Positions 6,530-41,364 of a stretch of 64,000 nucleotides of DNA are shown in pieces. The translations under genes and the position numbers were made by a program. The notes under the pieces are model-generated. The model was not told the origin of the DNA. It did no database searches and worked only from the letters and a program-made list of their open reading frames with translations. Each line of letters starts with the position of its first letter. Position 1 is the stretch's first letter. The DNA is taken from NCBI GenBank assembly GCA_029262995.1, contig JAJCYH010000008.1, positions 62,001 to 126,000 on the forward strand. The letters run 5' to 3'. The DNA is from Saprospiraceae bacterium (lineage in GTDB: Bacteria; Bacteroidota; Bacteroidia; Chitinophagales; Saprospiraceae).

Positions 6530-7764
6530 ATCTTGTAGAATCGTTTTCCGAATTTAAAGCGGGAAAAAATATTGATAGGCCAACTATGGTCAGAGTTTTG
6601 GAAGATGTTTTCAGAACTTTAATAAAGAAGAAGTATGGATCTGATGAAAACTTCGATGTCATCGTCAATACTCAAAACGGAGACCTTGAAATGTGGAGGG
6701 TTAGAGAAATCGTTCCAGATGGTGAGGTAACGGATGAGATGAGCCAAATTTCTTCTTCAGAAGCTTTATCTATAGATGAAGATTATGAAATTGGTGAGGA
6801 ATGTTACGAGCAATTAGGATTGGAAGACTTCGGAAGAAGAGCAATCCTTGCTGCAAGACAGACCTTGATTTCAAGAATCATGGAGCTTGAAAAAGATGAA
6901 ATTTATAAGCGATACTCCGATCGTATTGGTGAACTAATTTTAGGTGAGGTAGCACAAGTTCTAAAAAGAGAATTCTTGATTATTGATGATGTTACAGGAA
7001 GTGAAATTATTCTCCCAAGAACAGAAATGATCCGCGGTGATTTTTTGAGAAAGGGTGACATGGTTAAGGGTGTGATCAAGATCGTAGAAATGAAGAATAA
7101 CAACCCTGTTGTTGTTATGTCTAGAACGGATAGTATGTTTCTTGAAAAATTAATGGAACAGGAAGTACCCGAGATTGAAGATGGTTTGATTACAATTAAA
7201 AAAATTGTAAGAATCCCGGGAGAAAGAGCAAAAGTTGCTGTAGAATCCTATGATGATAGAATCGATCCTGTTGGTGCTTGCGTAGGAATGAAAGGATCAA
7301 GAATTCATGGTATTGTAAGAGAGTTGAAAAATGAGAACATAGATATAGTTAACTATACCGCCAATTCAACTTTATTTATTCAGAGATCTTTGACACCTGC
7401 AAAGGTCTCAAACATTGAGTTAAATGTTGAAAAAGGAACAGCAGCTGTATTCTTAAAAGCAGATCAAGTTTCTTTAGCCATTGGAAAAGGGGGGTCCAAC
7501 ATTAAGTTAGCAAGCCGATTAACAGGTTTTGAAATTGATGTTTATAGAGAAGATGATGATCCAGGATTGGAAGATGTGGATTTGGATGAATTCTCTGATG
7601 AAATAGAAGAATGGGTAATAAATTCTCTGAAATCCATTGGGTGCGATACAGCTAGAAGTGTTTTAGATTTGAGCAAGGATGAATTGCTAAGAAGAACAGA
7701 CCTAGAAGAAGAGACTATTGATTCAGTAATTCAAGTTTTAGAATCTGAATTTGCTGACGATTAG
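6526..7764 (+). CDS. nusA: Transcription termination/antitermination factor NusA
   Basis: RNA-polymerase-binding factor controlling pausing, termination and antitermination. The 412 residues show the N-terminal polymerase-binding domain (1 to about 130), an S1 domain (LGEVAQVLKREFLIIDDVTGSEIILPRTEM), and two KH domains with VGACVGMKGSRIHGIVREL and the second GXXG site IGKGGSNIKLASRLTG. An acidic tail rich in Asp and Glu follows, then a short helix-hairpin-like C-terminus (WVINSLKSIGCDTARSVLDLSKDEL). The length is typical for Bacteroidota, without the two acidic repeats of E. coli NusA. It overlaps rimP by 4 bases and is 36 bases before infB. Confidence 0.96.
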   Translation: MNLVESFSEFKAGKNIDRPTMVRVLEDVFRTLIKKKYGSDENFDVIVNTQNGDLEMWRVREIVPDGEVTDEMSQISSSEALSIDEDYEIGEECYEQLGLEDFGRRAILAARQTLISRIMELEKDEIYKRYSDRIGELILGEVAQVLKREFLIIDDVTGSEIILPRTEMIRGDFLRKGDMVKGVIKIVEMKNNNPVVVMSRTDSMFLEKLMEQEVPEIEDGLITIKKIVRIPGERAKVAVESYDDRIDPVGACVGMKGSRIHGIVRELKNENIDIVNYTANSTLFIQRSLTPAKVSNIELNVEKGTAAVFLKADQVSLAIGKGGSNIKLASRLTGFEIDVYREDDDPGLEDVDLDEFSDEIEEWVINSLKSIGCDTARSVLDLSKDELLRRTDLEEETIDSVIQVLESEFADD

Positions 7765-7800
7765 GGCAATATAATTATTTGATAAAATTTATAGCGATAC

Positions 7801-10515
7801 ATGTCACAACGCTTAGTTAAGATAGCGAAAGAATTAAATGTAGGAACTTCCACTATTGTGGAATTCCTAAGAGAAAATGGGTTTGAAATAGAAAACAAGC
7901 CTACATCTAAAGTTTCTGATGATATGTATGAAGCTTTGATCAAGGAATTCAGCAACTCCATTGCCGTAAAGGAAAAGGCAGACAAATTAGTCATTGGTAA
8001 TCGAGTGCAACCGGAACCTGGAGTGCCTGAAAAACCCGTTGCTCCTGTTAAAGTAGAAGTTGCCAAACCAGAAGAAATCAAAGAAGAGGAAAAGCCTGCT
8101 CCAGAAGAGCCAAAAGCCGAACCTGTAATTGAAAAAAAACCAAAGTCTGAATTGAAGGTTGTTGGTAAAATTGATCTTGAAGACTTAAAGCCTAAGAAGA
8201 AGGTTGAAGTTATAAAGGAAGAAACAAAGCCAGCTCCTGAAGAACCAAAAGCGAAAGAAGTTGAGCCCGAAAAGGCTAAACCGGATGAAACTGAATCAGC
8301 TCCTTCTTCAGCTCCTGAGACCTCCACAGAGATTCCCGAAGAGATGTTAAGAGCAAAAACACCGCAGCTTGCAGGACTAAAAATTCAGGGGAAAATAGAT
8401 ATAAAGAAATTTGATAAACCTAAAAAGAAACCTGAAGCTAAAGCCAAAACAGATAAAGCTTCCGGCGATAAAGACAAAAGGAGCTCCCAGCCTAAACGAA
8501 AAAGAACTCGTAAAAAAGTTACTGCACAATCCTTGATGAAAAGAAACCAGCCTGGATCTAAAGGACCTGGTAAGAAAGATGATGAAGTAAAAACAATTTC
8601 TAAAAAAGAGATTGAAGAAAAGATCAAGGCTACAATGGCCAGGATTTCTGGGGGAGCAAAAAACAAAAGACAAAAAATCCGTAGAGATAGTAGAGCAGAT
8701 AAAAGAGAAAAAGCTGAATTAATCGAACAGCAAACAGAAGAAACCGTATTAAGGTTAACAGAATTTGTGTCTGCTTCTGAATTGGCTAGTTTAATGGATG
8801 TAAGCGTTTCAGAAGTTATTACAAAATGTATGAACCTAGGTGTCATCGTTTCCATAAATCAGAGAATGGATGCCGAAATTATCGAATTGGTAGCAAATGA
8901 ATTTGGACACGATGTAGAGTTCATCTCGGTTGAAGATCAAGAGGATAATATCATCGTCATTGAAGAAGATGATCCAGACACCCTTGAACCAAGAGCGCCA
9001 ATAGTTACAGTTATGGGGCACGTTGATCACGGCAAAACCTCTCTTTTGGATTATATCCGAAATGCAAATGTGGTAGCTGGTGAAGCAGGTGGTATTACAC
9101 AGCACGTAGGTGCCTATTCCGTTTCAGTAAATGAAGGTAAAGTTACTTTCCTTGATACACCAGGTCACGAAGCCTTTACAGCGATGAGGGCCAGAGGGGC
9201 TAAAGTAACCGATATTGTGGTTGTAATAATCGCAGCTGATGATCAAATCATGCCACAAACTAAAGAAGCAATTAGTCACGCTCAAGCAGCACAAGTACCT
9301 ATCGTATTTGCAATAAATAAAATAGATAAGGAAGGTGCTGATCCTACCCGAATCAAACAACAACTTTCAGAAATGAATATCCTTGTTGAGGATTGGGGTG
9401 GTAAATATCAGTCTCAAGACATATCAGCAAAATCAGGATTAAATATTGAACTTCTCCTTGAGAAAATACTTCTTGAAGCAGAAATCCTTGAACTTAAAGC
9501 AAATCCTAATAAATATGCTGTCGGTACAGTAGTAGAGGCTTCTCTTGATAAAGGAAGAGGGTATGTAACCAAATTGCTAGTTCAAGCAGGAACCCTGAAA
9601 ATTGGGGATGCTATGGTTGCAGGCTCTTACGCTGGTAAGATTAAAGCCATGTTTAATGATAAAGGTAAGAAGATAAAAAGTGCTGGTCCTTCAACACCAG
9701 TCGCAATACTTGGTCTAGACGGAGCTCCACAGGCAGGTGAGAAGTTTAAAGTAACAGAAAAAGAACAGGAAGCTAAGTCTATCGCAACCAAGAGATCGCA
9801 GATTGAAAGAGAGCAAACCAACAGAGCTTCCAAGCGTATTAGTTTGGATGAAATCGGTAGACGTCTTGCACTAGGAACTTTCAAGGAATTGAATTTAATT
9901 GTTAAAGGTGATGTCGATGGTTCAGTAGAAGCACTTTCAGATTCGTTGATCAAATTGTCACAGGAAACTGTTCAAGTCAATGTTATTCATAAAGCGGTAG
10001 GTGCTATTGCAGAATCAGATGTATTGTTAGCGTCAGCTTCTGATGCTATCATCATTGGATTCCAAGTTAGACCTTCAGGAACGGCTAGATCAATTGCTGA
10101 AAAAGAAGGTGTTCAGATTAAGACTTATTCAATAATCTACGAGGCTATTGAAGAAATTAAAAAAGCCATTGAAGGTATGTTGGATACCATCAAAGAGGAG
10201 AAAGTTCTTGGTAATATCGAAATTAAGGAGACATATAAAATAAGTAAAATTGGTACTATAGCAGGTTGTTATGTTACTGAAGGAAAGGTGACACAAGATG
10301 CTAAAGTTAGGGTGATTAGGGATGGTATCGTTGCCTATCCAACCAAAGAAGGTGCTAATGCCGAACTTGCATCTCTTAAACGTTACAAAGATGACGTAAA
10401 AGAAGTAAGAGCTGGTATGGAATGTGGTCTGACGGTTAAAAACTATAACGATTTAAAGGTTGGAGATGTAATCGAGGCTTACGAGATCATCGAAATAAAA
10501 AGAACTTTAGAATAA
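7801..10515 (+). CDS. infB: Translation initiation factor IF-2
   Basis: GTPase that places initiator tRNA on the 30S subunit and promotes subunit joining. The 904 residues start with an IF2_N helix bundle ([34 protein letters not shown]). A low-complexity linker rich in Lys, Glu, Pro and Ala runs to about residue 310 and is followed by a second IF2_N-like segment. The G domain has G1 GHVDHGKT at 406-413, G3 DTPGHEAF and G4 NKID, and domains II-IV follow. The repeated [15 protein letters not shown] units in the linker are the likely reason an unrelated long reading frame appears on the other strand. It is the last gene of the rimP operon. Confidence 0.97.
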
Positions 10516-10540
10516 TTTATCCAATTTACTTAATAGTACT

Positions 10541-11314
10541 GTGCCAGGTATACCTCAAAACTTTGACGCATTAAAAGCATTTCTAGACCTTAAATATGTT
10601 CAATTCAATCACCAGGATTTTATCTTAGATGATCCAATTCAGATTCCTAAGTCTTATTCCCTTTTACAAGACATAGAAATTACAGCTTTATGGACCGCAT
10701 TGCTTTCTTGGGGTCAAAGGAAAACTATTATCAACAAGTGTGGTGAACTCTTTGCATTAATGGATAATGCGCCTTATGACTTTATTATAAATCATAAAGA
10801 GTCAGACCGTAAAGTCTTTTCAAATTTTAAACACCGCACTTTTCAGTATACTGATACACTATATTTCCTTGAATTTTTTCAATGGTACTATTCAAAAAAC
10901 GATACGCTTGAAGATTTTTTTCTTAAATATTCAACGATCGAATCGGCATTGACAGATTTTCATAATTATTTTTTTCAACTTGATAATGCACCGAAAAGAA
11001 CAAGAAAACATATAGCCTCTCCAGAGCGAAACTCTACCTGTAAAAGATTAAATATGTTTTTAAGGTGGATGGTCCGAAAGGATGAGAATGCTGTTGATTT
11101 CGGTTTGTGGAGCAAGATTCAACCCTCCATTTTGATGATGCCACTTGATGTTCACGTTGAAAGAGTAGCAAGGAAATTAAATCTACTTAAGCGAAAGCAA
11201 AGAGATTGGAAAGCTGTTGTCGAACTAACAAATTCCCTTAGACAATTTGATCCAAGTGACCCCGTTAAATACGATTTTGCATTATTCGGATTAGGTGTTA
11301 TCCATGAATTATAA
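10541..11314 (+). CDS. TIGR02757 / DUF2400 family protein
   Basis: A 257-residue member of the DUF2400 (TIGR02757) family, common in Bacteroidota and of unknown biochemical function. Recognisable features are the start with YVQFNHQDFILDDPIQIP, the ALWTALLSWGQRKTIINK helix, a region with SPERNSTCKRLNMFLRWMVRKD, and LMMPLDVHVERVARKLNLLKRKQRDWK, whose DVHVxRVxRxLxLxxR pattern resembles HhH-type DNA-glycosylase folds. The start is GTG at 10541, 25 bases after infB, so readthrough from that operon is possible. Its 3' end overlaps the convergent DUF4783 gene by 6 bases, so no separate terminator exists between them. Conserved but uncharacterised. Confidence 0.82.
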   Translation: MPGIPQNFDALKAFLDLKYVQFNHQDFILDDPIQIPKSYSLLQDIEITALWTALLSWGQRKTIINKCGELFALMDNAPYDFIINHKESDRKVFSNFKHRTFQYTDTLYFLEFFQWYYSKNDTLEDFFLKYSTIESALTDFHNYFFQLDNAPKRTRKHIASPERNSTCKRLNMFLRWMVRKDENAVDFGLWSKIQPSILMMPLDVHVERVARKLNLLKRKQRDWKAVVELTNSLRQFDPSDPVKYDFALFGLGVIHEL

Positions 11315-19150: not shown

Positions 19151-22100
19151 ATGCGAAGTATAACTACACTTTTTGCAGTCATCGTAATATTAGCTACTGC
19201 ACATGCGCAAGAATCAATATTTGGCGAATTGGTAGAATCCAATGGACAGTTTGAAACTGTGGATGCCAATTTTGAAAATTATGAGATTTATAGAATTCAA
19301 ATCCAAAAGCAATTGGTTGAAAACCAATCGTCTAGTTTCTTATTAGATTTGCATTTTGGAAATAGAACATTCAAACTAAACCTTTTCAAGGATAATTTAA
19401 CCACCTCTTTTGTAGCAGAGAACAAGCCCGTCACACTTGGTGGCTCCTTGTATTCTGGTGGATCAGTCAGTTTGACCATTAATGACGGCTTCATTTTTGG
19501 ATTTATACAAGAAGGAAATAGCAAATATTATATAGAACCACTACGTCGACTTGAAAAGTCTGCAGATTCTGATCTATTCTTGTTTTATCATGTCGATGAT
19601 GTTATTGACACGGGAGAGCATATTTGCGGATCAGATTTGGTTGATTCAAAAACACCAAAGCTTCCTGATGCATTTCTGAAAATGCCTACTACAGCCTGTA
19701 AGATTGTCGATTATGCTATTGCCAATACATTCGATATGATAGCAGCTATTGGAGGTGGAACTACAGGTGTAATGAATTTTAATATTGGGGTTTTAAACGA
19801 TGTTCAGACCAATTACAGATCTGAATTTGATACCAATCTTGAATATGATGTTGTAGCCAATTATGTGTCTACCTCAACTGCAAATAACCCATATGAGCCT
19901 CAAACTTCAAGCACAAATGGAAGTACTCTATTATTTAGATTCAGAGAATGGGCAAGAGGACCAGGTAATGCTGGTGGAGGAAATACCGGGGGTGCTACCG
20001 GTGGGTTTGGCGTAGATTATAATATGGCTGGTGTATGGACAGATACAGATTTTAGTGGAGGTGTAGTCGGAATAGCATACACGCCAGGATGGCACCATAT
20101 TCTTGAGAATTATACAAGTTCTGCCGCAAGTCTAAATGCCATGGTTTCTCATGAGATCGGACACAACTGGAATGCTCCGCATGTTGGATCCTGTGGAAAT
20201 AACAATATAATGGCACCTTGTGTCACACTTACAGATATATGGGCAGCTTCTACTAAAACAACGATCAGTACTAGAATTGCATCGCAAGGATACCTTGATA
20301 ATTGCTCTGTTATAGGACCTCCAATTGCAGATTTCTTTCAGGGGGGAATAGCAGGTTGTACAGGTTCAACGATCTCATTTGAGGATCAATCTCAATATGG
20401 TGCAACAAGGACATGGGATTTTATTACGGGAACACCGCCAACTTCTACAAGTGAAAAGCCTACCATTACTTTTAATACTGTAGGATTGCACCCAGTTACA
20501 ATTACTTCTACAAATGGTGCAGGTAGTGATACAGAAGTGAAATATGTAGATATTCAGGCAGCTCCACCAACGCCTTGTACGCCATCAGGTACAGGAGGCT
20601 CTGCTGGTATAACCTTGTTCAGATTGACTTCTATCAATAACAGCAGTACTACAACTGGAGTCTATGAAGATTTTTCTTGTGATGGTTCTGCAGTTTTGGA
20701 CGAGAGTACTACATATTCATATACATTAGGGGTTCAGGGTGTTACAAGATTAAGATACTTTTTTGATTATAATGACGATGGTGATTTTAATGATACTGGC
20801 GAGTCGTCATCTCAATATACATTAAGTAATCCCAATGGTACTTATAATGTTTCTTTTACAACTCCTTCTGCACCAGTTCAAGGTCAACTATTGCGAATGC
20901 GTGTAACTGTTTCTACGACGAGTATCGCAAGTGGCGGTTGTACGACTCCTTCTGCAGGACAAGTTGAAGACTACTCACTTTATTTTGAAGCACCTCAGGT
21001 ATATGGATGTACTGATCCTGCGGCAACAAACTATGATCCTACGGCAACGATAGATGATGGAAGTTGTACGTACGGTTCGATAACATGGTATAGGGATTTT
21101 GATAGTGATAATTTTGGAGACCCTAACATAAGTCAACAATCTGCTTCACAGCCAGCTGGATATGTAGTTGATGATACAGATTGTGATGATAATGATGCTA
21201 ATGCATTTCCAGGTAATCCAGAAGTATGTGATGGTGTTGACAATGACTGTGACGGTAATATTGATAATGGAGTGCTAACAACATATTATAGGGATTTTGA
21301 TAGTGATAATTTTGGAGACCCTAATATCATTTCTCAAGCTTGTACTCAACCTATTGGATTTGTTAGCAATAATGATGACTGTGATGATAACGATCCTTTA
21401 GAATTTCCAGATCAAATCTGGTATAGGGATTTTGATAACGATTTGCATGGTAATGGTATAAATATTGTCCAGTGTACAAGACCTGCTGGTTATTTTGTAA
21501 GTGCTGAATTAATATCTGTGGATTTGGATTGTAATGATGATGATCCTACCGCTTTTCCTGGTAATCCAGAAGTTTGCGATGGAGTAGACAATGATTGTAA
21601 TGATATAATCGACGATGGTGTGTTGTTGATGTTCTTCAGAGATTTTGATAATGACAATTATGGCGATATAGACGTTTACACACAAGCTTGTACTCAACCA
21701 ATAGGATATGTAACGAACGACCTGGATTGTAATGACAATGATCCTCTTGAATTTCCAGGTCAAGTTTGGTATTTAGATGAAGATGGCGATGCGTATGGAG
21801 AAGGTACATCATTGGTAAACTGTACACGACCAACCAACTATTACGTTTCTTCTGAATTGATTTCGACAAATTCTGATTGTAATGACAATGATGCTTCAAT
21901 TAACCCAGGTGAAATAGATGTTTGCGGAGATGGTATTGATAATGACTGTAGTGGTCAAGCTGATGAAGGCTGTGGTTCTCCACCTGATTGTGATGCTGCT
22001 AATCTAGTTATCCCTGTAATAACACAAAATGAATATAGAGCGGAACTTGGTATAGAAAGTGATGCATTAGTTGATAACGGTCAGAGTGTATTGTTTACTG

Positions 22101-22459
22101 CAGGTACTCAGCTTGATTTTGAAAGTGGGTTTGAAGTTGTGGCGGGAACACTTTTTGAAGCGATTATAGCACCTTGTTTCAACGGATTTGATGGTCCCGA
22201 AAATGATGACGTTTCTAAAGCTACAATTGTATTAGATTTAGAAGAGTTATCTCAATTGGTTCTTGAAGATCATTCTGAACGATCTACTCTTCACGTATTT
22301 TTCTTTAATAAATATGGAGAGGAGATTATTGAGTTTACTTCAGAGGCACAAAGCTTCAAAACCACAATACAGCAAAAATTAAACACTTTGGATAAAGGAC
22401 ATTATTTAATAATGGTCAATTATGGTGATAAGTGGCTTACCATGAATTTGATGCAGTAA
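19151..22459 (+). CDS. Secreted reprolysin-type metalloprotease with PKD, GEVED and MopE-type repeats
   Basis: A 1102-residue exported zinc peptidase. Residues 1-19 are a signal peptide (ending ATAHAQ). The catalytic domain has HEIGHNWNAPH at 334-344 (HExxHxxxxxH) with a Met-turn CGNNNIMAPC. A PKD domain spans about 390-472 and a GEVED domain about 475-615 (FDYNDDGDFNDTGE, GQVEDYSLYF). A YGCTDPAATNYDP unit is near 617. Five Asp-rich MopE-type repeats at about 645-942 combine Ca-loop-like DFDSDNFGD with DCxDNDxxxFPG and VCDGVDNDCD. A coathanger-like segment (ALVDNGQSVLFTAGTQLDFESGF) follows. The C-terminal 60 residues (GEEIIEF...LDKGHYLIMVNYGDKW) resemble a divergent type A T9SS sorting domain. 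Outer surface or medium location is inferred. Confidence 0.88.
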   Translation: MRSITTLFAVIVILATAHAQESIFGELVESNGQFETVDANFENYEIYRIQIQKQLVENQSSSFLLDLHFGNRTFKLNLFKDNLTTSFVAENKPVTLGGSLYSGGSVSLTINDGFIFGFIQEGNSKYYIEPLRRLEKSADSDLFLFYHVDDVIDTGEHICGSDLVDSKTPKLPDAFLKMPTTACKIVDYAIANTFDMIAAIGGGTTGVMNFNIGVLNDVQTNYRSEFDTNLEYDVVANYVSTSTANNPYEPQTSSTNGSTLLFRFREWARGPGNAGGGNTGGATGGFGVDYNMAGVWTDTDFSGGVVGIAYTPGWHHILENYTSSAASLNAMVSHEIGHNWNAPHVGSCGNNNIMAPCVTLTDIWAASTKTTISTRIASQGYLDNCSVIGPPIADFFQGGIAGCTGSTISFEDQSQYGATRTWDFITGTPPTSTSEKPTITFNTVGLHPVTITSTNGAGSDTEVKYVDIQAAPPTPCTPSGTGGSAGITLFRLTSINNSSTTTGVYEDFSCDGSAVLDESTTYSYTLGVQGVTRLRYFFDYNDDGDFNDTGESSSQYTLSNPNGTYNVSFTTPSAPVQGQLLRMRVTVSTTSIASGGCTTPSAGQVEDYSLYFEAPQVYGCTDPAATNYDPTATIDDGSCTYGSITWYRDFDSDNFGDPNISQQSASQPAGYVVDDTDCDDNDANAFPGNPEVCDGVDNDCDGNIDNGVLTTYYRDFDSDNFGDPNIISQACTQPIGFVSNNDDCDDNDPLEFPDQIWYRDFDNDLHGNGINIVQCTRPAGYFVSAELISVDLDCNDDDPTAFPGNPEVCDGVDNDCNDIIDDGVLLMFFRDFDNDNYGDIDVYTQACTQPIGYVTNDLDCNDNDPLEFPGQVWYLDEDGDAYGEGTSLVNCTRPTNYYVSSELISTNSDCNDNDASINPGEIDVCGDGIDNDCSGQADEGCGSPPDCDAANLVIPVITQNEYRAELGIESDALVDNGQSVLFTAGTQLDFESGFEVVAGTLFEAIIAPCFNGFDGPENDDVSKATIVLDLEELSQLVLEDHSERSTLHVFFFNKYGEEIIEFTSEAQSFKTTIQQKLNTLDKGHYLIMVNYGDKWLTMNLMQ
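21080..21975 (+). repeat. Coding tandem repeats (five MopE-type units)
   Basis: Five degenerate Asp/Asn-rich units inside the metalloprotease gene, alternating longer (with VCDGVDNDCD) and shorter forms. A 38-base stretch beginning TATAGGGATTTTGATAGTGA at 21091 recurs identically near 21289, showing recent duplication or homogenisation of units 1 and 2. The units probably bind calcium and extend the protein. Confidence 0.8.
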
Positions 22460-28380: not shown

Positions 28381-28510
28381 ATAGTGATGGAAGCAGAAAT
28401 TGTGCCAGTTTCATTAAATGGAGTTTACAGGCTTTTGCCATTTAGCCTGATAAATTGATATTATGCTTAGAAAAAAGAATGTATTTTACGGGTTTAATAC
28501 TATAATTATC

Positions 28511-31500
28511 ATGCAAAAGACCTTTCTATTCTGCTTATTAATAGCTTTGTTTGTCTCTTGTTCGTCTGATTCAGATACCTCTGCTTTGGGTAATAAACGA
28601 CCGATGGATACTTGGGTATTTCGTTCAGTCTTAGATCAAAAGCCAAGGATGTTAGTCGCTGCCTTACATAAGGATTTATATGTCGCCTATGATACGCAAA
28701 AGGGCAAACTGTATAAGGCTTGGAATGGAATTGTTAATTTTCAAGGCGCAGTCTACGACGGTGCACATGGTCCACAACCTACATCTGTTGGTGATGCCTA
28801 TATAATTGACGACTCTATGGATGGCGTATGGTTTATAAAAAAAGGCGATCAGCTTGCTCCTGCTGAATATAATTATAGAGGACACAGAATGACCAAACAG
28901 TCCTTTGAACTCATGTATGAATTGTCAACAGCAAATGGAGATATAGCCTTGATTACTGAAGAAGTTAATTTTCTAATAACTGAAAACGGGCAACTTAAAC
29001 TAATCAGAAACTTTAGTGCTAAAAACAATACTGATATAGTGTGGAAGAGCAATGCTATTCTAGTTGATAAATCACAAATAGAAAGCAATGCTAATTTTGT
29101 CGTTGGGGAGGGCTCTCCTATGAATTTCAAAAGTAAGCAATTCTTTAATTATCCAATTCAATTGCATCTAAATGAAAACGGAAATTCTCAATTGGAAATT
29201 CCTCTTCTGGAAACAGTTTTTTTAGATCCTAATATTGATGATGGTTTTGAATCTGATGAAAGCAGTCTTCCACTGGGAGCGCAGCTGATAGGAAGAAATG
29301 ATTGTAAGATTTGCCACAATGTTTCAAAGCAAACCGTTGGACCTTCTTATAAAGCTATTGCTAAAAAATATGAGCATTCAGATGAAAATATGGTCATGCT
29401 TACCGATAAAATTAAAGCTGGTGGATCAGGTATTTGGGGTCAACAAGTCATGACACCACATCCGGAAGTTCCTGAGAATGATTTAAGAGAGATGGTAAAA
29501 TATATCTTTTTATTGGATGAATTTGAAGGAGAATCCAGTACCCCAAAAGGAGATCTTAGTTTGATAAATGCTATTGAGATAGATGAATCTAAGTTGATGC
29601 CCGGTATATTGACCAGAATATATTCAATTCCAAACAATACCCAGTTAATGCCAATAAATCTTATGGATCAAAAGCCTATACAAGCCGGAATTCTGCAAAA
29701 CTATAACAATATCAGTGGTGGAGATTTCAAGGAATTAGAAGATAATTTTGCTTTAGTGGGAATAGGGATGCTTAATATTGAGGAAACTACTATTTATAAT
29801 TTTCGGCTTTGGTCTGATGATGGCTCTAAATTATTTCTTCATAATAAGGCAGTTATAGATAATGACGGAAACCACAGCACAGAGATGAAACAGGTAAGCG
29901 TAATGCTTGAAAAAGGACTCCATCCCTTTCGAATTGAGTTTTTCCAGGGCAATGGGGGTAAGTTTTTATCATTTAATATGAAATCCGAAAAAGATAAGTC
30001 ATGGAAAGTAGTTCCGCCTGAGATGTTAAGTCATGATAAAGGCGATAGAAAATATGTTTCTAGCTTAAGTCTTCCTATGTCTGTCATCACAAAAATACCT
30101 GGAGATAGAATGCCGGTTTTGGATGTTCATCCTGCATTTGATATCACACAAGCTAGACCAGATGATTTTTCAAAGAAAATTGGTGGATTAGATTTTTTAT
30201 CGGATGGTAGCATGTTGGTTAGTGTTTGGGAAAAAGACGGTTCAGTTTACAAATTAGAAAATCATGCAAATGGAAATCCTGATGAAATTAGTTACAAAAA
30301 GATAGCAGAAGGACTTGCAGAACCTCTTGGGTTAAAAGTTGTAGATGATCGTATTTTTATAATGCAAAAACAAGAGCTTACGGAATTGATAGATTTAGAT
30401 GGTGACCATATCATTGATGAATATAGAACTGTTTGTGATGATTGGGGCGTGACCGCTAATTTTCATGAATTTGGCTTTGGATTAGAGGAAAAGCATGGCT
30501 ACTTATATGCTAATTTGGCTACTGGGATTTTACCAGGAGGAGCTGGAATGCCGAATCAACACCAAGACAGAGGCAGTTGTATCAAGGTGTCTATTGAGGA
30601 TGGTTCAATGGAAATTCTTGCGAATGGTTTAAGAACGCCAAATGGGATAGGTTTAGGCTTTAACGATGAGTTATTTATTGCCGATAACCAAGGTGATTGG
30701 TTGCCCTCATCTAAGATTATCCATGTTACAAAAGGTGATTGGTTTGGTTCAAGAGTAGTTGATTTTGATGGTACTAAAGAGTTTAAAGAGAAAAAACCGG
30801 TTGTTTGGTTGCCACAAGATGAAATAGGAAATTCTCCATCTACGCCATTATGGTTAAATGTAGGACCTTACAAAAATCAAATGATACATGGAGAGGTAAC
30901 CCATGGTGGCATCAAACGTGTTTTTGTTGAAGAAGTAAATGGTGCATTCCAGGGAGCAGTTTTTAGATTTATTCAAGGTCTTGAAGCTGGAGTTAACAGA
31001 ATCAGATGGGCTCCTGATGGATCATTATATGCAGGAGGAATCGGAAATCCTGGGAATTGGCAGCAATCAGGCAAATTATGGTATGGTTTGCAGAGATTAA
31101 ATTATAATGGAAATTCTGCATTTGAAATGCTGGCTGTAAGAGCAAAATCAGATGGTATAGAAATTGAATTTACCGAAGTCTTAAAGCCTGGTGACGGTGT
31201 GATAAAAGATGATTATGAAATCAGACAATGGTACTACCTACCCACAGAAAATTATGGAGGACCGAAATTAGATGATAAGCCTTTAGATATTTTATCCGTA
31301 AATGTTTCTGAAGACAGGAAAAGGGTATTTATTGAATTAGATGACATGGAAGAGGACCATGTGGTTTATATCCGCCTTAAGAATCATTTTATTAGTGAAG
31401 AAGAACATTCGTTATGGTCGACTGAGGCTTGGTACACAATGAATTATATTCCTCAGAATGATTTCGGATTTAAATCAAAACAAGTATCATTTGTAAAATC

Positions 31501-32140
31501 TAATGGTCTGACGGAGTTAGAATCTGAAGATGGGTGGATATTACTTTTTGATGGAAATAAAATTGATCAATTCCACACTTACAATGGTCAAGGAGTAGAT
31601 AGTAAATGGAAAATCGATAACGGAGCTTTACATTTTAATCCTGAGGCTGAAGGAAACGGAGGCGACCTGGTAACAAATGATGAATTTGAAAACTTTGAAC
31701 TTTGTCTTGAGTGGAAGATAAGTAATTGTGGAAATAGTGGAATCTTCTTTAATTCAGTTGAGGATAAAAAGTATTGTTGCCCTTATTTGACAGGTCCAGA
31801 AATGCAGGTTCTTGATAATACATGCCATCCTGATTCCAGATTTGAGACACACAGAGCTGGAGATTTGTATGATATGATTGAAACAAGTATTGTTACAGTT
31901 AACCCTGCTGGGGAATGGAATAAGGTCCGAATAATTTCGAACCAAGGAGATGTTCAGTTCTGGCTGAATGGATATAAGGTTGTTGAATTTGGAATGTATG
32001 ACGAAAATTGGAATGCCATGATTGCAGATAGTAAATTCAAAGACTGGGAGGATTTTGGTAAATTTAAATCTGGTCATATTGGTTTGCAAGATCATGGTGA
32101 CAAAGTATGGTATAGAAATATTAAAATAAAGAGACTTTAG
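28511..32140 (+). CDS. Lipoprotein fusing cytochrome c, PA14, sugar-dehydrogenase propeller and DUF1080 domains
   Basis: A 1209-residue lipoprotein; lipobox FVSC puts the acylated Cys at residue 17. An unnamed N-terminal domain runs to about 260. A c-type haem site follows, CKICH at 265-269 with candidate axial Met314. A PA14-like beta domain lies about 361-500. A six-bladed propeller of the PQQ/sorbosone-dehydrogenase type lies about 537-867, with NGIGLGFNDELFIADNQGDW. The C-terminal 3-keto-disaccharide hydrolase (DUF1080) lies about 1000-1209: GWILLFDGNKIDQFHTYNG, GNSGIFFNS, GPEMQVLDN, HRAGDLYDM. ATG 28511 is chosen for the signal peptide. A sugar-oxidising lipoprotein passing electrons to its haem and cleaving the 3-keto product is inference. 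Confidence 0.85.
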   Translation: MQKTFLFCLLIALFVSCSSDSDTSALGNKRPMDTWVFRSVLDQKPRMLVAALHKDLYVAYDTQKGKLYKAWNGIVNFQGAVYDGAHGPQPTSVGDAYIIDDSMDGVWFIKKGDQLAPAEYNYRGHRMTKQSFELMYELSTANGDIALITEEVNFLITENGQLKLIRNFSAKNNTDIVWKSNAILVDKSQIESNANFVVGEGSPMNFKSKQFFNYPIQLHLNENGNSQLEIPLLETVFLDPNIDDGFESDESSLPLGAQLIGRNDCKICHNVSKQTVGPSYKAIAKKYEHSDENMVMLTDKIKAGGSGIWGQQVMTPHPEVPENDLREMVKYIFLLDEFEGESSTPKGDLSLINAIEIDESKLMPGILTRIYSIPNNTQLMPINLMDQKPIQAGILQNYNNISGGDFKELEDNFALVGIGMLNIEETTIYNFRLWSDDGSKLFLHNKAVIDNDGNHSTEMKQVSVMLEKGLHPFRIEFFQGNGGKFLSFNMKSEKDKSWKVVPPEMLSHDKGDRKYVSSLSLPMSVITKIPGDRMPVLDVHPAFDITQARPDDFSKKIGGLDFLSDGSMLVSVWEKDGSVYKLENHANGNPDEISYKKIAEGLAEPLGLKVVDDRIFIMQKQELTELIDLDGDHIIDEYRTVCDDWGVTANFHEFGFGLEEKHGYLYANLATGILPGGAGMPNQHQDRGSCIKVSIEDGSMEILANGLRTPNGIGLGFNDELFIADNQGDWLPSSKIIHVTKGDWFGSRVVDFDGTKEFKEKKPVVWLPQDEIGNSPSTPLWLNVGPYKNQMIHGEVTHGGIKRVFVEEVNGAFQGAVFRFIQGLEAGVNRIRWAPDGSLYAGGIGNPGNWQQSGKLWYGLQRLNYNGNSAFEMLAVRAKSDGIEIEFTEVLKPGDGVIKDDYEIRQWYYLPTENYGGPKLDDKPLDILSVNVSEDRKRVFIELDDMEEDHVVYIRLKNHFISEEEHSLWSTEAWYTMNYIPQNDFGFKSKQVSFVKSNGLTELESEDGWILLFDGNKIDQFHTYNGQGVDSKWKIDNGALHFNPEAEGNGGDLVTNDEFENFELCLEWKISNCGNSGIFFNSVEDKKYCCPYLTGPEMQVLDNTCHPDSRFETHRAGDLYDMIETSIVTVNPAGEWNKVRIISNQGDVQFWLNGYKVVEFGMYDENWNAMIADSKFKDWEDFGKFKSGHIGLQDHGDKVWYRNIKIKRL

Positions 32141-32164
32141 GATTGATGAATAAAACAAGAACTA

Positions 32165-33328
32165 ATGTCAGATAAATCAAGATTATTTATAGCCAGTTGT
32201 ATTGCCTTGGTCGTTACTTCTATGACTTTTGCCATAAGAGCAAGGTTAGAAACAGTATTTGGACCAGAAGGTGTAGGGTTAAGTTTGGAACAGATCGGTT
32301 ATGCATTTACACCCGCTTTTTGGGGATTTACTCTAGCAATGATAATCGGAGGACCATTAGTAGATACACTGGGAATTAAAAGAATAACCCAATTTGCTTT
32401 TTTCTCTCATTTAATAGGAGTTGTCTTAACATTATTTGCAACCAATTTAACTACTCTCTTTACTGCAACCTTGTTTATTGGTATTGGAAATGGGATGGTT
32501 GAGGCTGCATTAAATCCAATGGTAGCTTCTTTATATCCTGAGCAAAAAACAAAAATGCTAAACAGATTTCATGTTTGGTTTCCAGGAGGAATTGTTATTG
32601 GCGCCTTTTTGGGTTATATAATTATGGATGTTATGAATTTAAATTGGCAAGTAATGGTGGCAACTTTGTTTATTCCTTTGTTGCTTTATGGATATTTATT
32701 TACAGGACAAAAATTTCCTCGAACGGAACGTGTTGAAATGGGTGTGAGCAATAGTAGGATGTGGAAAAGTATTTTTACACCATTATTCCTTTTTATGGGA
32801 TTTTGTATGTTGTTAACTGCTGCAACAGAACTCGGAACCAATCAGAGGATAGAATCATTACTTAGCTCCTCAGGTGTTGTGCCTCTTTTGGTATTAGCAT
32901 TCATAAATGGTATAATGGCTATTGGTCGGGCATTTGCTGGACCTATAGCCCACAGATTAAAACCATCCGGTATGTTGTTATTTTCTGCTATATTTTCATT
33001 TTTAGGATTATGGGCCTTTACGCAATTTTCAGGATCTATGACATTTGTTGCAGCAGGAATCTTTGCCATAGGAATTACCTTTTTCTGGCCTACAATGATT
33101 TCTTTTATTGCAGAAAATATTCCGGAATCAGGTGCCCTTGGTTTAGCAGTCATTGGTGGCTTAGGAATGCTTTCTGTTTCAATAGTTTTGCCTATAATGG
33201 GTTATATACTTGATGGAGCGACGGGAATTGATGCACTTAAATTAATATCAATTTTACCAGGAGTTTTGATTCTATTGTTTGCTGGACTTTATTATCACAT
33301 GCACAAGAGGAAGCAATTCGCTAAATAG
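32165..33328 (+). CDS. MFS transporter
   Basis: A 387-residue major facilitator superfamily carrier with twelve predicted membrane segments. The typical intracellular loop after helix 2 appears as GGPLVDTLGIKRITQF, and helix 4-5 carries GIGNGMVEAALNPMVASLYPEQKTKMLNRFHVWFPGG, resembling the fucose/sugar branch of MFS. The last helices include SGALGLAVIGGLGMLSVSIVLPIMGYILDG. It starts 24 bases after the DUF1080-fusion lipoprotein and is followed 28 bases later by the antiporter, so the three are probably cotranscribed. The carrier may import the sugar or keto-sugar released outside, which is inference from context. The substrate is not readable. Confidence 0.88.
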   Translation: MSDKSRLFIASCIALVVTSMTFAIRARLETVFGPEGVGLSLEQIGYAFTPAFWGFTLAMIIGGPLVDTLGIKRITQFAFFSHLIGVVLTLFATNLTTLFTATLFIGIGNGMVEAALNPMVASLYPEQKTKMLNRFHVWFPGGIVIGAFLGYIIMDVMNLNWQVMVATLFIPLLLYGYLFTGQKFPRTERVEMGVSNSRMWKSIFTPLFLFMGFCMLLTAATELGTNQRIESLLSSSGVVPLLVLAFINGIMAIGRAFAGPIAHRLKPSGMLLFSAIFSFLGLWAFTQFSGSMTFVAAGIFAIGITFFWPTMISFIAENIPESGALGLAVIGGLGMLSVSIVLPIMGYILDGATGIDALKLISILPGVLILLFAGLYYHMHKRKQFAK

Positions 33329-33356: not shown

Positions 33357-35210
33357 ATGCTGGAATTAGGGAGCGTTATCATATTGGGCATCTTAGCGCA
33401 ATGGTTGGCATGGAGGATTAAGGTCCCTGCAATTCTACCTTTATTGTTGATAGGGCTAACTGTTGGTCCTTTATCTACATTATGGACGGTAGATGGTCAA
33501 AAGTTGCTTGAACCGATGTGGAATGGGCAAAAGGGATTATTTGCTGGAGATCACCTCTTTCATTTTGTTGAATTGGCAATTGGCTTAATTCTCTTTGAAG
33601 GAGGAATGAGTTTGAAAAGAGAAGAGCTAAGGGGTGTTGGCCCAGCAATCATTAATTTAATCACTTTAGGTTCCTTAGTGACTTTTGTAGGAGGTGCGTT
33701 TATGGCTTTTTTCATAATGGGATTGCCTTGGGATATCTCTTTTTTATTCTCAGGATTGATAATTGTAACTGGTCCCACTGTGATCGGCCCAATTTTAAGA
33801 AATTTGAATCTAAAGCGTAATGTTTCGGCTATTCTGAAATGGGAGGGGATATTAATAGATCCAATAGGAGCCTTGGTGGCAGTATTGGTTTATGAATTTA
33901 TTCGCCTTTTTCATAATCCTGAATTTGGAGGAGGAGGAGATTTTACCGGAATGGCAATCAGGCAATTTTTGACAATATCACTTCTAGGAACTTCGTTGGG
34001 TTTCTTCTCAGCTCATGGATTAAAATGGCTTTTGAAGCGCTCCTTGGTGCCTCATTACTTATTAACGGTATTTACATTGTCTTATGTTCTTTCAGTCTTT
34101 GTAGGATCTCATTTCCTCGTAGCAGATTCAGGGCTATTAACTGTTGTTGTTTTAGGTATGGTAATAGGCAATATTGATATGCCTCATAAAAAGGAGATTG
34201 CAGATTTCGGGGAATCAATTAGTATATTATTGATTGCGATCTTGTTTATTTTGCTTAGCGCAAATATTGATATGTTGGACCTTCAGCTATTAAATGATTG
34301 GAGAGTTTTTGCATTATTTGCAAGTATAATTTTGGTTTTAAGACCTTTAGGCGTATTTCTTAGTACAAGGAGTTCTGGAATTGCATTTAAAGAAAAGCTT
34401 TTCATCAGTTGGGTAGGTCCTCGCGGTATCGTAGCCGCTGGGATTGCCTCTCTTTTTGGTTCAAAATTGGTGAATGAGGGTGTACCAGGGGCAGAATACA
34501 TTACGCCTTTAGTATTCATGATCGTATTAGGAACGGTCATTTTGAATGCTACGACGGCAGGTTTAATAGCACGAATGTTAAATGTATTACTTACCAAGAG
34601 CAATGGAATATTAATTTTGGGTGCACATCGAGCTTCAAGATTAATTGCAAAATATTTGGTAGATAACAATAGGCATGTAATTTTGGTTGACAGTAATATG
34701 GCTAATGTTGAGCTAAGTCTTGAATTGGGTATTGATTCATTCCAGACTAATATTTATTCAGATGAACTCAATGACAATAGCGATTTAAATGATGTTGGTT
34801 TTATGCTAGCAATGACGGGTAGCACTGAAGTAAATGAATATGCTCTTAAGACATTCTCGGGTCAGTTTGGTGAAAATGGTGCATATAGATTAATTTCAGT
34901 GAATGAGTTACAACATCCTGAAAATATAGAAGAGGATCACTTGTTTTCAAATAAAGATGACTTCATTAACCTTCTAGAAGTTGCAAGAGATTATCCTGAA
35001 ATCCATGAATTGGAAATCAATTCACAAGAACATCTTCAGCAGAGTTTACAGGCTATACATATGGAAGAAAAGATTATACCTTTATTTGTTAAGGAGTCCG
35101 ACACCGACGAATATAAAATTGTGGTCTCGGACTTTTCAAAAATTACCGCTCAAGAAGGAGATAAACTTGTTTACATGGGTAAAAAGCTATTCCTTTCTCC
35201 ACCAGAATAA
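33357..35210 (+). CDS. Cation/proton antiporter with TrkA-N domain
   Basis: A 617-residue inner-membrane antiporter of the CPA family (NhaP/KefB-like). About twelve helices fill residues 1-405, with LAIGLILFEGGMSL and the functional region TGPTVIGPILRNLNLKRNVSAILKWEGILIDPIGALVAVLVYE, which is a typical cation site (the D of IDP). WVGPRGIVAAGIASLFG is the second family signature. From about residue 418 a Rossmann TrkA-N domain follows (ILILGAHRASRLIAKYLVDNNRHVILVDSN) that may sense NAD(H) or nucleotides. The ion could be Na or K. It is the third gene of the lipoprotein-MFS set; the functional link to it is uncertain. Confidence 0.9.
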   Translation: MLELGSVIILGILAQWLAWRIKVPAILPLLLIGLTVGPLSTLWTVDGQKLLEPMWNGQKGLFAGDHLFHFVELAIGLILFEGGMSLKREELRGVGPAIINLITLGSLVTFVGGAFMAFFIMGLPWDISFLFSGLIIVTGPTVIGPILRNLNLKRNVSAILKWEGILIDPIGALVAVLVYEFIRLFHNPEFGGGGDFTGMAIRQFLTISLLGTSLGFFSAHGLKWLLKRSLVPHYLLTVFTLSYVLSVFVGSHFLVADSGLLTVVVLGMVIGNIDMPHKKEIADFGESISILLIAILFILLSANIDMLDLQLLNDWRVFALFASIILVLRPLGVFLSTRSSGIAFKEKLFISWVGPRGIVAAGIASLFGSKLVNEGVPGAEYITPLVFMIVLGTVILNATTAGLIARMLNVLLTKSNGILILGAHRASRLIAKYLVDNNRHVILVDSNMANVELSLELGIDSFQTNIYSDELNDNSDLNDVGFMLAMTGSTEVNEYALKTFSGQFGENGAYRLISVNELQHPENIEEDHLFSNKDDFINLLEVARDYPEIHELEINSQEHLQQSLQAIHMEEKIIPLFVKESDTDEYKIVVSDFSKITAQEGDKLVYMGKKLFLSPPE

Positions 35211-38469: not shown

Positions 38470-39798
38470 ATGAAAGTAGCAATTATTGGAAATGGAGTTA
38501 GTGGAATTACTGCCGCCAGGTGGATTCGCAAATTGGGGAATCACCAAATTTCAGTTATCTCTTCTGAATCTGACTACTTTTTTTCCAGAACTGCCCTAAT
38601 GTATGTTTATATGGGGCATATGAAATTTGATGATATTCAACCATATGAACCTGATTTTTGGTTAAAAAACCGTATTGATCTTGTAAAGGATAGGGTCAAG
38701 CAAGTTGTTTTTGATGAGAAGAAATTAATACTGGAAAGCTCAGAGCCAATAGTATATGACAAACTAATTTTCGCCTTGGGTTCCAAATCAAATATGTTTG
38801 GTTGGCCAGGACAAGACTTGAATGGTGTTGGAGGTCTATATGCACTTCAAGATCTTCAGAATATGGAAGCTTTTAGCTCTGGATTGGAAAGAGCAGTTGT
38901 TGTTGGAGGAGGACTTATTGGAATTGAAATGGCAGAAATGTTTCACTCTCGAAAGATTCCAGTAACAATGTTGGTAAGAGAATCAGATTATTGGAATAAT
39001 GTACTACCTCCAGAGGAATCAGCTATGATTTCAAGACATATTGTTAAACATGGCATAGATCTTAGATTGAATTCTAATCTTGGTGAAATTATAGATGATG
39101 GTGATGGCAAGGCTTGTGCAGTCGTTGTGAAAGAGACGGGAGATAAAGTTAATTGTGGTTATGTAGGTTTGACGGCTGGAGTTAGCCCGAATGTAGATTT
39201 TTTGAAAAACTCTTCATTGGAAGTGGAAAGAGGCATCATGGTTGATGATTACCTACGGACCAATATAGGTGATGTATATGCAATAGGAGATTGCGCGCAA
39301 ATAAGAGAAGCAAAGCCAGGAAGAAAAAATATTGAAGCAGTGTGGTACACAGGTAGGATGATGGGTGAGGTGGTTGCACATAATGTTTGTGGAAATAAGA
39401 TTGATTATGATCCAGGAATATGGTTTAATTCGGCTAAATTTATCGATATTGAATATCAAGTTTATGGCGATGTACCACAAGAAAGCAATTCAATATATTG
39501 GGAACATTCTTGTGGAGAAAAGTCAATACGCATTGTTTATGATCAAAACACTCAAATCGTTACTGGTCTCAATCTTATGGGAATTAGATTTCGACATGAA
39601 GTGTGTGAAAAGTGGCTTGCCAGTAAAGCAAAATTAGAAGATGTTTTAGAAAACATTTGCCTAGCAGACTTCAACCCAGAATTTTATGAGACTTATGAGA
39701 AATCACTAATAAGTCAATACAATGAGAGTTTTGGAAAAGAATTAGTACTGAAATCTAAACGTTCCCTTAATAGTGTATTATCATTTTTAAAACAATAA
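38470..39798 (+). CDS. FAD-dependent NAD(P)-disulfide-type oxidoreductase
   Basis: A 442-residue cytoplasmic flavoprotein of the pyridine nucleotide-disulfide reductase superfamily, nearest in pattern to rubredoxin/ferredoxin reductases and the N-half of nitrite reductase NirB. FAD-binding GXGXXG is IGNGVSGITAARWIRK (about 5-20). The NAD(P) site is VVVGGGLIGIEMAEM near 143, and the second FAD motif VYAIGDCAQ is near 271. No active-site CXXXXC disulfide is seen. ATG 38470 gives the Rossmann start directly. A polyferredoxin gene follows 3 bases after its stop, so an electron-transfer pair from NAD(P)H is probable. The final acceptor is not known. Confidence 0.9.
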   Translation: MKVAIIGNGVSGITAARWIRKLGNHQISVISSESDYFFSRTALMYVYMGHMKFDDIQPYEPDFWLKNRIDLVKDRVKQVVFDEKKLILESSEPIVYDKLIFALGSKSNMFGWPGQDLNGVGGLYALQDLQNMEAFSSGLERAVVVGGGLIGIEMAEMFHSRKIPVTMLVRESDYWNNVLPPEESAMISRHIVKHGIDLRLNSNLGEIIDDGDGKACAVVVKETGDKVNCGYVGLTAGVSPNVDFLKNSSLEVERGIMVDDYLRTNIGDVYAIGDCAQIREAKPGRKNIEAVWYTGRMMGEVVAHNVCGNKIDYDPGIWFNSAKFIDIEYQVYGDVPQESNSIYWEHSCGEKSIRIVYDQNTQIVTGLNLMGIRFRHEVCEKWLASKAKLEDVLENICLADFNPEFYETYEKSLISQYNESFGKELVLKSKRSLNSVLSFLKQ

Positions 39799-39801
39799 TT
39801 G

Positions 39802-41364
39802 ATGTCTGATCCTGTTTATAATAGTATGTCGGTCGCTAACCCGCACCCACTGCATTTAGATCTCCAGCAAAAATTAGCCTCTGCATTAGCTGCAATTGGA
39901 TTGCTCATTATCCTTATGGCTGCAATTAATATAAAGATGGTTGCTACAGTTCAGATGCTATGGTTGTCATTAAGTTTGATAAGCATCGGAACCATTTGGT
40001 TTGCTTATAGAGCATATTTAACTAAGTCTCCAGGGATTAAGAATGATGGGATAATGTTTTCAAGTTTAACCAATAAAGGTTTATGGGCCTGGATGGCAGG
40101 CATATTCATTACAGGCTTCTATGTTTTATTGTATTGGTTTCCAAGCTATTTGGGATTGGCGCAAGATGATCAAGGAAACACAGGACTAGTAGCTTTTTTT
40201 GATCCTCTTTCGATGCTTTTAAAATCCAAGCCAGCAAGTCAATGGTTTGTTTATGGTGTTCTTTATACCTTGGCTATATTAATTTTTGGCTTGAGATTTA
40301 TATGGAAATACAGGTATAATAAGTATCAAATTCTTAGAACCCTAAGCGTCATGTTTTTTCAATTAGGATTTGCATTTTTAATTCCTGAATTCTTACAAAA
40401 GTTAAACTATCCATATAATGACATGAAAAATATGTGGCCCTTGAATTATTATTTCTTTGACGAATGGAGTATAAAAGGCTTTTTGGAAGGTGGCAATCTT
40501 GGATGGTTCATGTTGCTATTCGGTATTTTGATGATATTTATAATTTCACCTGTTCTTACATATCTATATGGAAAAAGGTGGTATTGCAGTTGGGTTTGTG
40601 GTTGCGGAGGATTGGCAGAAACAGCAGGTGATGCTTTCCGACATCTATCTGATAAATCGATAAAAGCTTGGCAAATAGAACGGTGGTTGGTCCATCTCGT
40701 ATTATTATTTGCATTTCTGATGACAATGGGTGTAATCTATAGTTTCTTCCATAACAACCCTCAAGGTTATTGGTTTGACAAAGGCAGTATTGTAATGCTA
40801 ATATCAATTATTGTTATTGGGTTAATAGGCACCAATTGGCTTGTAAAACCATTTAAAAATAAAATAGATCAAAAAGCTTTATACATATTCACAGGCGTAA
40901 TGACGTTGGGACTATTGTTAATGATTGTATCTTATTTTACAGGAAATAAGAATGCTTTGTTTATTGATTTCTACACATTAAGAAGTAGTTATGGGTTCAT
41001 TATAGGTGCAATATTTTCCGGAATTGTTGGCGTTGGATTCTACCCATTGATGGGCAATAGGGTTTGGTGTAGGTTTGGTTGTCCTATGGCTGCCATTTTA
41101 GGGATACAGCAAAAATTGTTTTCCAGATTCAGGATTACAACAAATGGTGGTCAATGTATAAGTTGTGGTAATTGTTCGACCTACTGCGAAATGGGTATTG
41201 ATGTTCGCTCTTATGCTCAGAAGGGGCAAAATATTGTTCGCTCTTCTTGTGTTGGCTGTGGGATTTGTGCCGCCGTTTGCCCTAGAGGTGTACTCAGACT
41301 TGAAAACGGTAGTGAAGATTTATTTTCCAAGACAGACGAAATCCGAAATATTCAGGTTAAGTAA
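39802..41364 (+). CDS. Membrane 4Fe-4S polyferredoxin (NapH/NosR/CcoG-like)
   Basis: A 520-residue membrane protein with about six helices and several iron-sulfur motifs. Before the C-terminal part it has CSWVCGCGGLAETAGDAFR near residue 262 and CRFGCPMAAIL near 422. Two ferredoxin clusters follow: CISCGNCSTYC near 451 and CVGCGICAAVCPRG near 483. The architecture resembles NapH, NosR C-terminal and CcoG proteins that move electrons across the inner membrane. ATG 39802 is chosen over TTG 39799. It directly follows the FAD reductase. nadC follows after 128 bases. The partner enzyme that receives electrons is not in the window. Confidence 0.87.
   Translation: MSDPVYNSMSVANPHPLHLDLQQKLASALAAIGLLIILMAAINIKMVATVQMLWLSLSLISIGTIWFAYRAYLTKSPGIKNDGIMFSSLTNKGLWAWMAGIFITGFYVLLYWFPSYLGLAQDDQGNTGLVAFFDPLSMLLKSKPASQWFVYGVLYTLAILIFGLRFIWKYRYNKYQILRTLSVMFFQLGFAFLIPEFLQKLNYPYNDMKNMWPLNYYFFDEWSIKGFLEGGNLGWFMLLFGILMIFIISPVLTYLYGKRWYCSWVCGCGGLAETAGDAFRHLSDKSIKAWQIERWLVHLVLLFAFLMTMGVIYSFFHNNPQGYWFDKGSIVMLISIIVIGLIGTNWLVKPFKNKIDQKALYIFTGVMTLGLLLMIVSYFTGNKNALFIDFYTLRSSYGFIIGAIFSGIVGVGFYPLMGNRVWCRFGCPMAAILGIQQKLFSRFRITTNGGQCISCGNCSTYCEMGIDVRSYAQKGQNIVRSSCVGCGICAAVCPRGVLRLENGSEDLFSKTDEIRNIQVK

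Follow-up and report, generated by a model that had tools for sequence, protein, structure and literature searches.

A Saprospiraceae lipoprotein with cytochrome c, PA14, propeller and DUF1080 domains on one chain: a candidate enzyme of 3-keto-glycoside metabolism

The DNA studied here, called the window below, is a stretch of 64,000 nucleotides from a Saprospiraceae bacterium (assembly GCA_029262995.1, contig JAJCYH010000008.1), the genome of which measures 3.77 Mb and is 97.7% complete. On the forward (+) strand, to which all parts of the lipoprotein and the carrier gene after it belong, an open reading frame at 28511-32140 encodes a lipoprotein of 1209 residues from an ATG at 28511, as a single intact frame within an enclosing open frame at 28463-32140. 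The domain order is an N-terminal domain, a cytochrome c, a PA14 domain, a propeller and a DUF1080 domain. A gene for a major facilitator superfamily (MFS) carrier of 387 residues (32165-33328; PF07690, MFS_1, 85.4 bits) begins 24 bases past the stop codon. An earlier note on this DNA had described both the fused lipoprotein and the carrier directly after it, and the intact frame, the coordinates and the Pfam matches bear this description out.

The fusion is real and is neither chance nor an artefact, because many relatives carry the same chain in a single frame. Among 199 genomes of the same family, 141 gave some match at E <= 1e-10, and at least 66, our own included, carry the chain at full length in one open frame that no stop interrupts (match starting at residue 1-29 and ending at 1206-1209; up to three candidates were scored per genome, and 66 is a lower bound). 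The 65 other full-length family members are 46-60% identical to the window protein. The earlier note had asked for a search for this fusion in other genomes and had considered that the domains might be separate in close relatives and joined here through a sequencing error; with the same full-length frame in at least 66 genomes, a sequencing or assembly artefact and a frameshift are both rejected. Six of the 395 genomes of the phylum are listed as full length, namely our own, two more of the same family (G080 and G170) and three of one genus outside the class (G211, G232 and G327). A scan of named genome contigs for close relatives gave three loci, all in Saprospiraceae, and none of the 48 matching plasmid records covers 80% of the protein. 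A description of the fusion was not found in the open-licence PMC literature.

The chain starts with a lipoprotein signal peptide (28511..28561) that ends at the lipobox Cys17 (LFVSC-SSDSD). This cysteine is present in all 31 rows that reach the column in alignment A1, which consists of 34 full-length proteins. Acidic residues just after the lipobox cysteine are the rule for surface lipoproteins of Bacteroidota. By a crude rule, used with no background control, a lipidation cysteine was picked in 32 of the 34 proteins, at least two of the picks looking wrong, and D or E stands second or third after it in 21 of the 32. If the protein sits at the surface, its electrons would have to find a way through the outer membrane.

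The cytochrome c domain covers residues 256-332 (29276..29506; Pfam Cytochrom_C, 25 bits against a cut-off of 21.3) and aligns with c551/c552 cytochromes. The haem-binding motif CKICH (residues 265-269, 29303..29317), to which the earlier note had pointed, is complete: both cysteines and the histidine are invariant in 34 of 34 proteins, and so is the distal Met314 (29450-29452), which aligns with the methionine found in chains of the cytochrome c-552 type, as expected of a class I cytochrome. The PA14 domain follows at residues 406-494 (29726..29992; 53.6 bits against 24). Its SDDG motif is invariant in A1, and Foldseek matched it to Marinomonas PA14 structures bound to several sugars.

The N-terminal domain, which the earlier note had left unnamed and set at residues 18-260, is present, but its boundaries are better placed at about 32-241 (28604..29233). 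It is all-beta and modelled with a pLDDT of 89.5. The best Foldseek match in the PDB has an E of 3.7e-3, none reaching 0.001. At the top of the list stand a Thermococcus glucanotransferase, several phosphorylases, among them one for cellodextrin, and heparinase-type lyases; YidC comes further down. We take the fold common to these top matches to be a mutarotase-type supersandwich. A sequence search of the PDB gave one sub-threshold match, and hhalign against DUF6797 proteins was weak. PF20601 (DUF6797) matched weakly in 9 of 32 members (E <= 1, best 1.2e-4), with no match at E <= 1 in the window's own N-terminal row. These data weakly suggest a mutarotase-type supersandwich that is distantly DUF6797-like. 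When 296 genomes of the phylum were searched with this domain, 10 gave matches, at eleven places in all: the window itself, nine copies of the fusion with or without DUF1080, and a paralogue frame of 951 residues in G447.

The DUF1080 domain (3-keto-disaccharide hydrolase, PF06439) closes the chain at residues 1008-1207 (31532..32131; 158.5 bits against 26.8), and a second DUF1080 was not found in the window's own genome. Foldseek placed it near 3u1x (E 9.6e-21) and 8rr2 (E 7.6e-19). In the Foldseek alignments it is 36-38% identical to 8rr2 and 9fbe, which are 3-keto-glycoside eliminase/hydratases, and to 8tda and 8v31, which are 3-keto-2-hydroxy-glucal hydratases. It could be argued that the domain is here an ordinary glycan hydrolase or a binding module with no 3-keto chemistry, since the DUF1080 protein THTE_1561 is given as an endo-xanthanase/lichenase in the excerpted text of PMC9007349. 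We regard this as very improbable, because the solved relatives include these four, all named for 3-keto chemistry, and because the fusion has partners of the Gfo/Idh and TIM-barrel kinds, which are described below. The 3-keto activity predicted in the earlier note is supported by the solved relatives and by a context of 3-keto-sugar metabolism.

The propeller, together with a C-terminal beta extension, covers residues 526-981 (30086..31453). In the full-length model (1193 residues, pLDDT 83.4, pTM 0.76), its best Foldseek matches among the 50 rows listed are 2ism, 1c9u, 1cq1, 3a9g and the AA12 domain 6jt5, all of which are pyrroloquinoline quinone (PQQ) sugar dehydrogenases or titled so; DDB1, sialidases and other propeller-bearing chains ranked lower, with long patchy alignments. 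Judged by these best matches, and with the blades not counted on coordinates, the predicted fold is of the six-bladed PQQ sugar dehydrogenase type. Comparison by hhalign with a profile of 12 GSDH proteins gave 97.9%, with 98.9% in global mode and 97.5% on gapless columns, and one GSDH sequence alone gave 91.4%. The controls gave at most 0.7% (20 column shuffles), 0.2% (reversed profile) and 0.1% (one LVIVD propeller sequence), and they hold no profile of a rival six-bladed family; SGL propellers, meant as a specificity control, gave no match at the set limit in 20 relatives. The name sugar dehydrogenase rests on this fold and profile comparison, because no Pfam family matches the propeller above its cut-off, and the claim is supported at the fold level only.

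The residues of soluble glucose dehydrogenase (sGDH), with roles as given in the excerpts of PMC6881789 and PMC6881810, were transferred through an alignment of the GSDH profile with chains of known structure. The catalytic His144 corresponds to His652 (30464-30466) with an alignment posterior of 0.55, and the quinone-contacting Arg228 to Arg708 (30632-30634) with a posterior of 0.9985. Both residues are invariant in the 34 proteins of A1 and in all 16 propellers of alignment A3, in which identity goes down to 28%.

Related propellers also occur outside the fusion. The Runella rosea plasmid NZ_CP030853.1 (L155:3982-7860) carries a DUF1080-PA14 gene and, 78 bases on along the same strand, a propeller-cytochrome c gene. 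This pair holds the four domain kinds of the window protein on two adjacent genes, with no match to its N-terminal domain. A Catenovulum plasmid has a propeller gene (33% identical) next after a gene for a c-type cytochrome, and a DUF1080 gene lies on the other strand, one small gene away. The idea that this cytochrome is a split copy of the N-terminal half of the fusion was rejected, the similarity not going beyond noise. Another related propeller (L099:7188-9104) ends in an azurin-like domain (32 bits, family cut-off 105) with no CxxCH, and a Rufibacter plasmid match is annotated as a member of the plastocyanin/azurin family. Cytochrome c was present in 7 of 9 long proteins fetched for DUF6797 or for the N-terminal domain. 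Because the propeller is joined to, or stands beside, a cytochrome c or azurin-like domain in other genomes, it is best read as a redox enzyme that accompanies one-electron carriers. We also observed two adjacent divergent genes (L147:1684-6003 and 6634-10926) for proteins of 1440 and 1431 residues with PA14, cytochrome c and DUF6797 matches.

The neighbourhood of the fusion was compared at 22 relative loci (L061-L082), which were taken from among the best matches. At 13 of them the next gene downstream, on the same strand, encodes a carrier, belonging either to the window's MFS_1 cluster (7 loci) or to a Nuc_H_symport cluster (6 loci), the clusters being named from the window's gene and one profiled member of each. 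The carrier stands one gene further downstream at a fourteenth locus (L071). In a tree of 33 proteins, those with one kind of carrier are mixed among those with the other. Of the 22 stretches fetched, five contain a Gfo/Idh gene, and four of these five also have a xylose-isomerase-like TIM-barrel gene. The window's own genome holds copies of these two genes elsewhere, 69% and 77% identical. In the 199 family genomes, the Gfo/Idh gene (E <= 1e-120) was found in 62 of the 66 with the full fusion, 63 of the 75 with other matches and 4 of the 58 with no match (full fusion vs no match, Fisher p 3e-25, shared ancestry ignored). By these counts the gene goes with the protein family as a whole, with or without the fusion, and not with the fusion in particular.

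Further genes of the window were also noted. A Na/H exchanger gene with a TrkA-N domain (33357-35210) starts 28 bases after the MFS gene, and this order of carrier and exchanger is kept in a locus of the same genus (L061). Upstream, at 19151-22459, a protein of 1102 residues shows a reprolysin-type metallopeptidase match, PKD, GEVED and three MopE metal-binding motif matches. Downstream, at 38470-41364, a NirB-like NAD(P)H oxidoreductase gene is directly followed by a NapH-like ferredoxin-type gene, the best NCBIfam matches lying below cut-off.

Taken together, we propose that the window protein may be a lipid-anchored extracytoplasmic enzyme of 3-keto-glycoside metabolism. The glycoside would be held by the PA14 domain and perhaps also by the N-terminal supersandwich, and the propeller would oxidise a hydroxyl of the sugar, probably with PQQ or another quinone-like cofactor, His652 acting as the base and Arg708 standing at the cofactor. 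The tethered c551-type haem would take up the electrons and hand them on to the respiratory chain. DUF1080 would then eliminate or hydrate the 3-keto-glycoside, which splits the glycoside, and the adjacent MFS carrier would import the freed (keto)sugar. The Gfo/Idh oxidoreductase and the TIM-barrel isomerase, encoded elsewhere in the genome, would complete catabolism in the cytoplasm. The sequence of oxidation, electron transfer to haem, cleavage and import is our best reading, and we favour it by a little over even chances; it is weakest as to which cofactor is used and where on the sugar oxidation takes place. The earlier note had suggested such a single surface machine: the single polypeptide, the haem, DUF1080 and the carrier are all in place, but oxidation at C3, the flow of electrons and the surface location remain presumptions.

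Several observations weigh against this proposal, in the propeller itself and in the genomes that carry its relatives. The propeller is 11-16% identical to the solved PQQ enzymes. The GSDH Pfam family has no match in the whole window protein at E <= 1, and the best Pfam family on the propeller, DUF7133, stays at 17.4 against a cut-off of 27. TIGR02604, which 12 of the 16 A3 members match at E <= 0.01, reaches 15 bits against 122.2 on the window protein, its best stretch lying outside the propeller. A few A3 members weakly match SGL, NHL or strictosidine synthase, which makes kinship to other six-bladed families possible. A search of the PDB with the A3 profile found no PQQ enzyme. Its 16 sequences were designed propellers (Pizza) and brain tumor (NHL) proteins, aligned over a single short motif, and they were not used as a direct sequence link to a solved PQQ enzyme.

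The cofactor site itself is half kept. Besides the low posterior of His652, the Asn229 of sGDH is replaced by Thr709 (threonine in 34 of 34 A1 proteins; T, Q, S or A in A3), the position of Lys377 is a threonine or tyrosine as read from the aligned neighbours, the HGP calcium loop corresponds to NQG with a posterior of 0.2-0.6, and the Arg406/Arg408 pair is poorly aligned, with no confident partner in the propeller. The fold and the catalytic His/Arg pair are kept, but no other part of the PQQ site can be recognised. The sugar dehydrogenase of the earlier note therefore stands as to the fold and the best solved neighbours, not as to several of the PQQ-contacting residues; as to the lack of a cofactor site, which it had named as the finding that would speak against it, the outcome is evenly divided. 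According to the excerpts of PMC6881789 and PMC6881810, CcPDH, a pyranose dehydrogenase of Coprinopsis, likewise has no such lysine and has other calcium ligands, and about 94% of AA12 enzymes keep Asx beside the arginine. A match to pqqC was not found in the window's own genome, and the control genomes likewise gave none; E. coli produces a PQQ enzyme although it does not synthesise the cofactor itself, as stated in the same excerpts.

The propeller might instead be a structural or glycan-binding platform, with the haem serving some other redox task and DUF1080 the sole catalytic domain. The lost PQQ contacts, the lack of a Pfam match above cut-off, the weak matches of a few members to other propeller families and the pqqC search, blank in the controls too, fit a platform. 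Against it stand His652 and Arg708, kept in all 16 propellers of A3 even at 28% identity, and the joining to or pairing with cytochrome c or azurin-like domains in other genomes. We consider a non-catalytic propeller unlikely.

The genomes also supply contrary points. At 8 of the 22 loci no gene of the two carrier clusters lies within two genes downstream, and Gfo/Idh is almost as common with other matches as with the fusion. On a second plasmid of the same Catenovulum strain, the cytochrome-propeller pair has no DUF1080 annotated within the stretch shown. DUF1080 alone is missing from the chain in seven more distant relatives (G116, G193 and G068 in the same-family set; G447, G326, G427 and G330 in the phylum set), and the existence of such proteins indicates that the domains need not act on one molecule. 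In the tree of 33 proteins, two DUF1080-less proteins (L090 and L091) group with the fused L078 (support 100/98), inside the fused clade, which would most simply mean a loss of DUF1080 there. A third (L086) branches as the sister (100/98) of the fused trio found outside the class, and four others group at the base with weak support (86/55) in a midpoint-rooted drawing. No member of the stand-alone DUF1080 cluster 43 was found among the neighbours of the DUF1080-less loci (L086-L092), these neighbours being only partly profiled.

The chemistry of the nearest enzymes raises a further difficulty, as the sGDH family oxidises at C1 and not at C3 (excerpts of PMC6881789 and PMC6881810). The propeller might accordingly be a PQQ-type dehydrogenase that oxidises the reducing end of the sugar freed by DUF1080 to a lactone, the 3-keto group coming from another enzyme, so that cleavage would precede oxidation. 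The presence of Gfo/Idh in 62 of 66 genomes with the fusion is in keeping with this, and so is the absence of DUF1080 from some relatives. However, the Gfo/Idh protein at one fusion locus (L068_11) has no evident export signal, and it would not supply a 3-keto substrate outside the membrane. We judge this order of events to be rather improbable, and retain oxidation before cleavage.

A bolder proposal is that the propeller represents a new class of glycoside 3-dehydrogenase with PQQ or a similar quinone, not flavin or NAD, and that the chain oxidises C3, feeds the electrons to the haem that it carries and cleaves the product as well, all within one molecule. We put this forward tentatively, as possible and still rather doubtful. 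If it is true, many Saprospiraceae hold a one-protein oxidative glycosidase, and its relatives are the broad families of propellers linked to a cytochrome or azurin in Bacteroidota and in the Planctomycetes-Verrucomicrobia-Chlamydiae (PVC) bacteria. With everything on one chain, a single recombinant protein would be enough for a direct test of the order in which the events occur. The fusion also gives a handle on the propeller-plus-cytochrome families DUF7133, TIGR02604 and DUF6797, whose names record no function; its substrate, once found, would tell what these families likely do.

Several known systems resemble the window protein in part. The DUF1080 domain shares its Pfam family and fold with the Bacteroides and Alistipes 3-keto-glycoside eliminase/hydratases and 3-keto-2-hydroxy-glucal hydratases, but those solved chains have about 243-256 residues, whereas here the domain ends a chain of 1209 residues with haem, PA14 and propeller. 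CcPDH also joins a haem domain (AA8), a six-bladed PQQ propeller (AA12) and a carbohydrate-binding module (CBM1) on a single chain, and its catalytic histidine and arginine have counterparts in the window propeller; it differs in having haem b instead of haem c, in keeping the asparagine next to the arginine and in having no cleaving domain. A protein of 1121 residues encoded directly upstream of the fusion at one relative locus (L076:5203-8565), with a homologue in the same place at L077 (cluster 42), likewise combines a sugar dehydrogenase propeller, haem c and a carbohydrate module in the order ThuA-GSDH-PKD-cytochrome c-CBM6. Unlike the fusion, it has a canonical GSDH propeller (130 bits), and ThuA in place of DUF1080. 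In Bacteroidota cytochrome c-DUF6797-propeller proteins, the propeller region is homologous (hhalign 100% across 555 columns, in a comparison with 8 proteins of which one lacks DUF6797), but the domain order is different and DUF1080 was absent from the 9 proteins profiled. The PVC-type haem proteins of TIGR02604 are a related kind, from whose cut-off the window protein is far.

As to pathways, a Hymenobacter plasmid cluster brings together a nucleoside permease, Gfo/Idh, TIM isomerases, a c-type cytochrome and DUF1080. The glycoside 3-dehydrogenase LacABC has a flavin oxidase. In the excerpts of PMC9007349, LacABC is set together with periplasmic DUF1080 proteins (Caulobacter, Pedobacter; THTE_1561 and BT2157 are named), which resembles our proposal in that extracytoplasmic oxidation is followed by cleavage through DUF1080. 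LacABC consists of separate subunits, whereas in the window protein a propeller takes the part of the presumed dehydrogenase and all the domains share a single chain. Beta-elimination of a 3-keto-glucoside, then hydration, for which the evidence was preliminary, and then reduction by Gfo are described in the excerpted part of PMC10628242. The 3-keto-glycoside pathways in the excerpts of the literature available to us are sets of separate enzymes, and the window presents a presumed oxidase, an electron outlet, a sugar-binding module and a cleaving domain in one conserved chain. The system is best read as a variant of the known 3-keto-glycoside pathways that is new in its single-chain layout.

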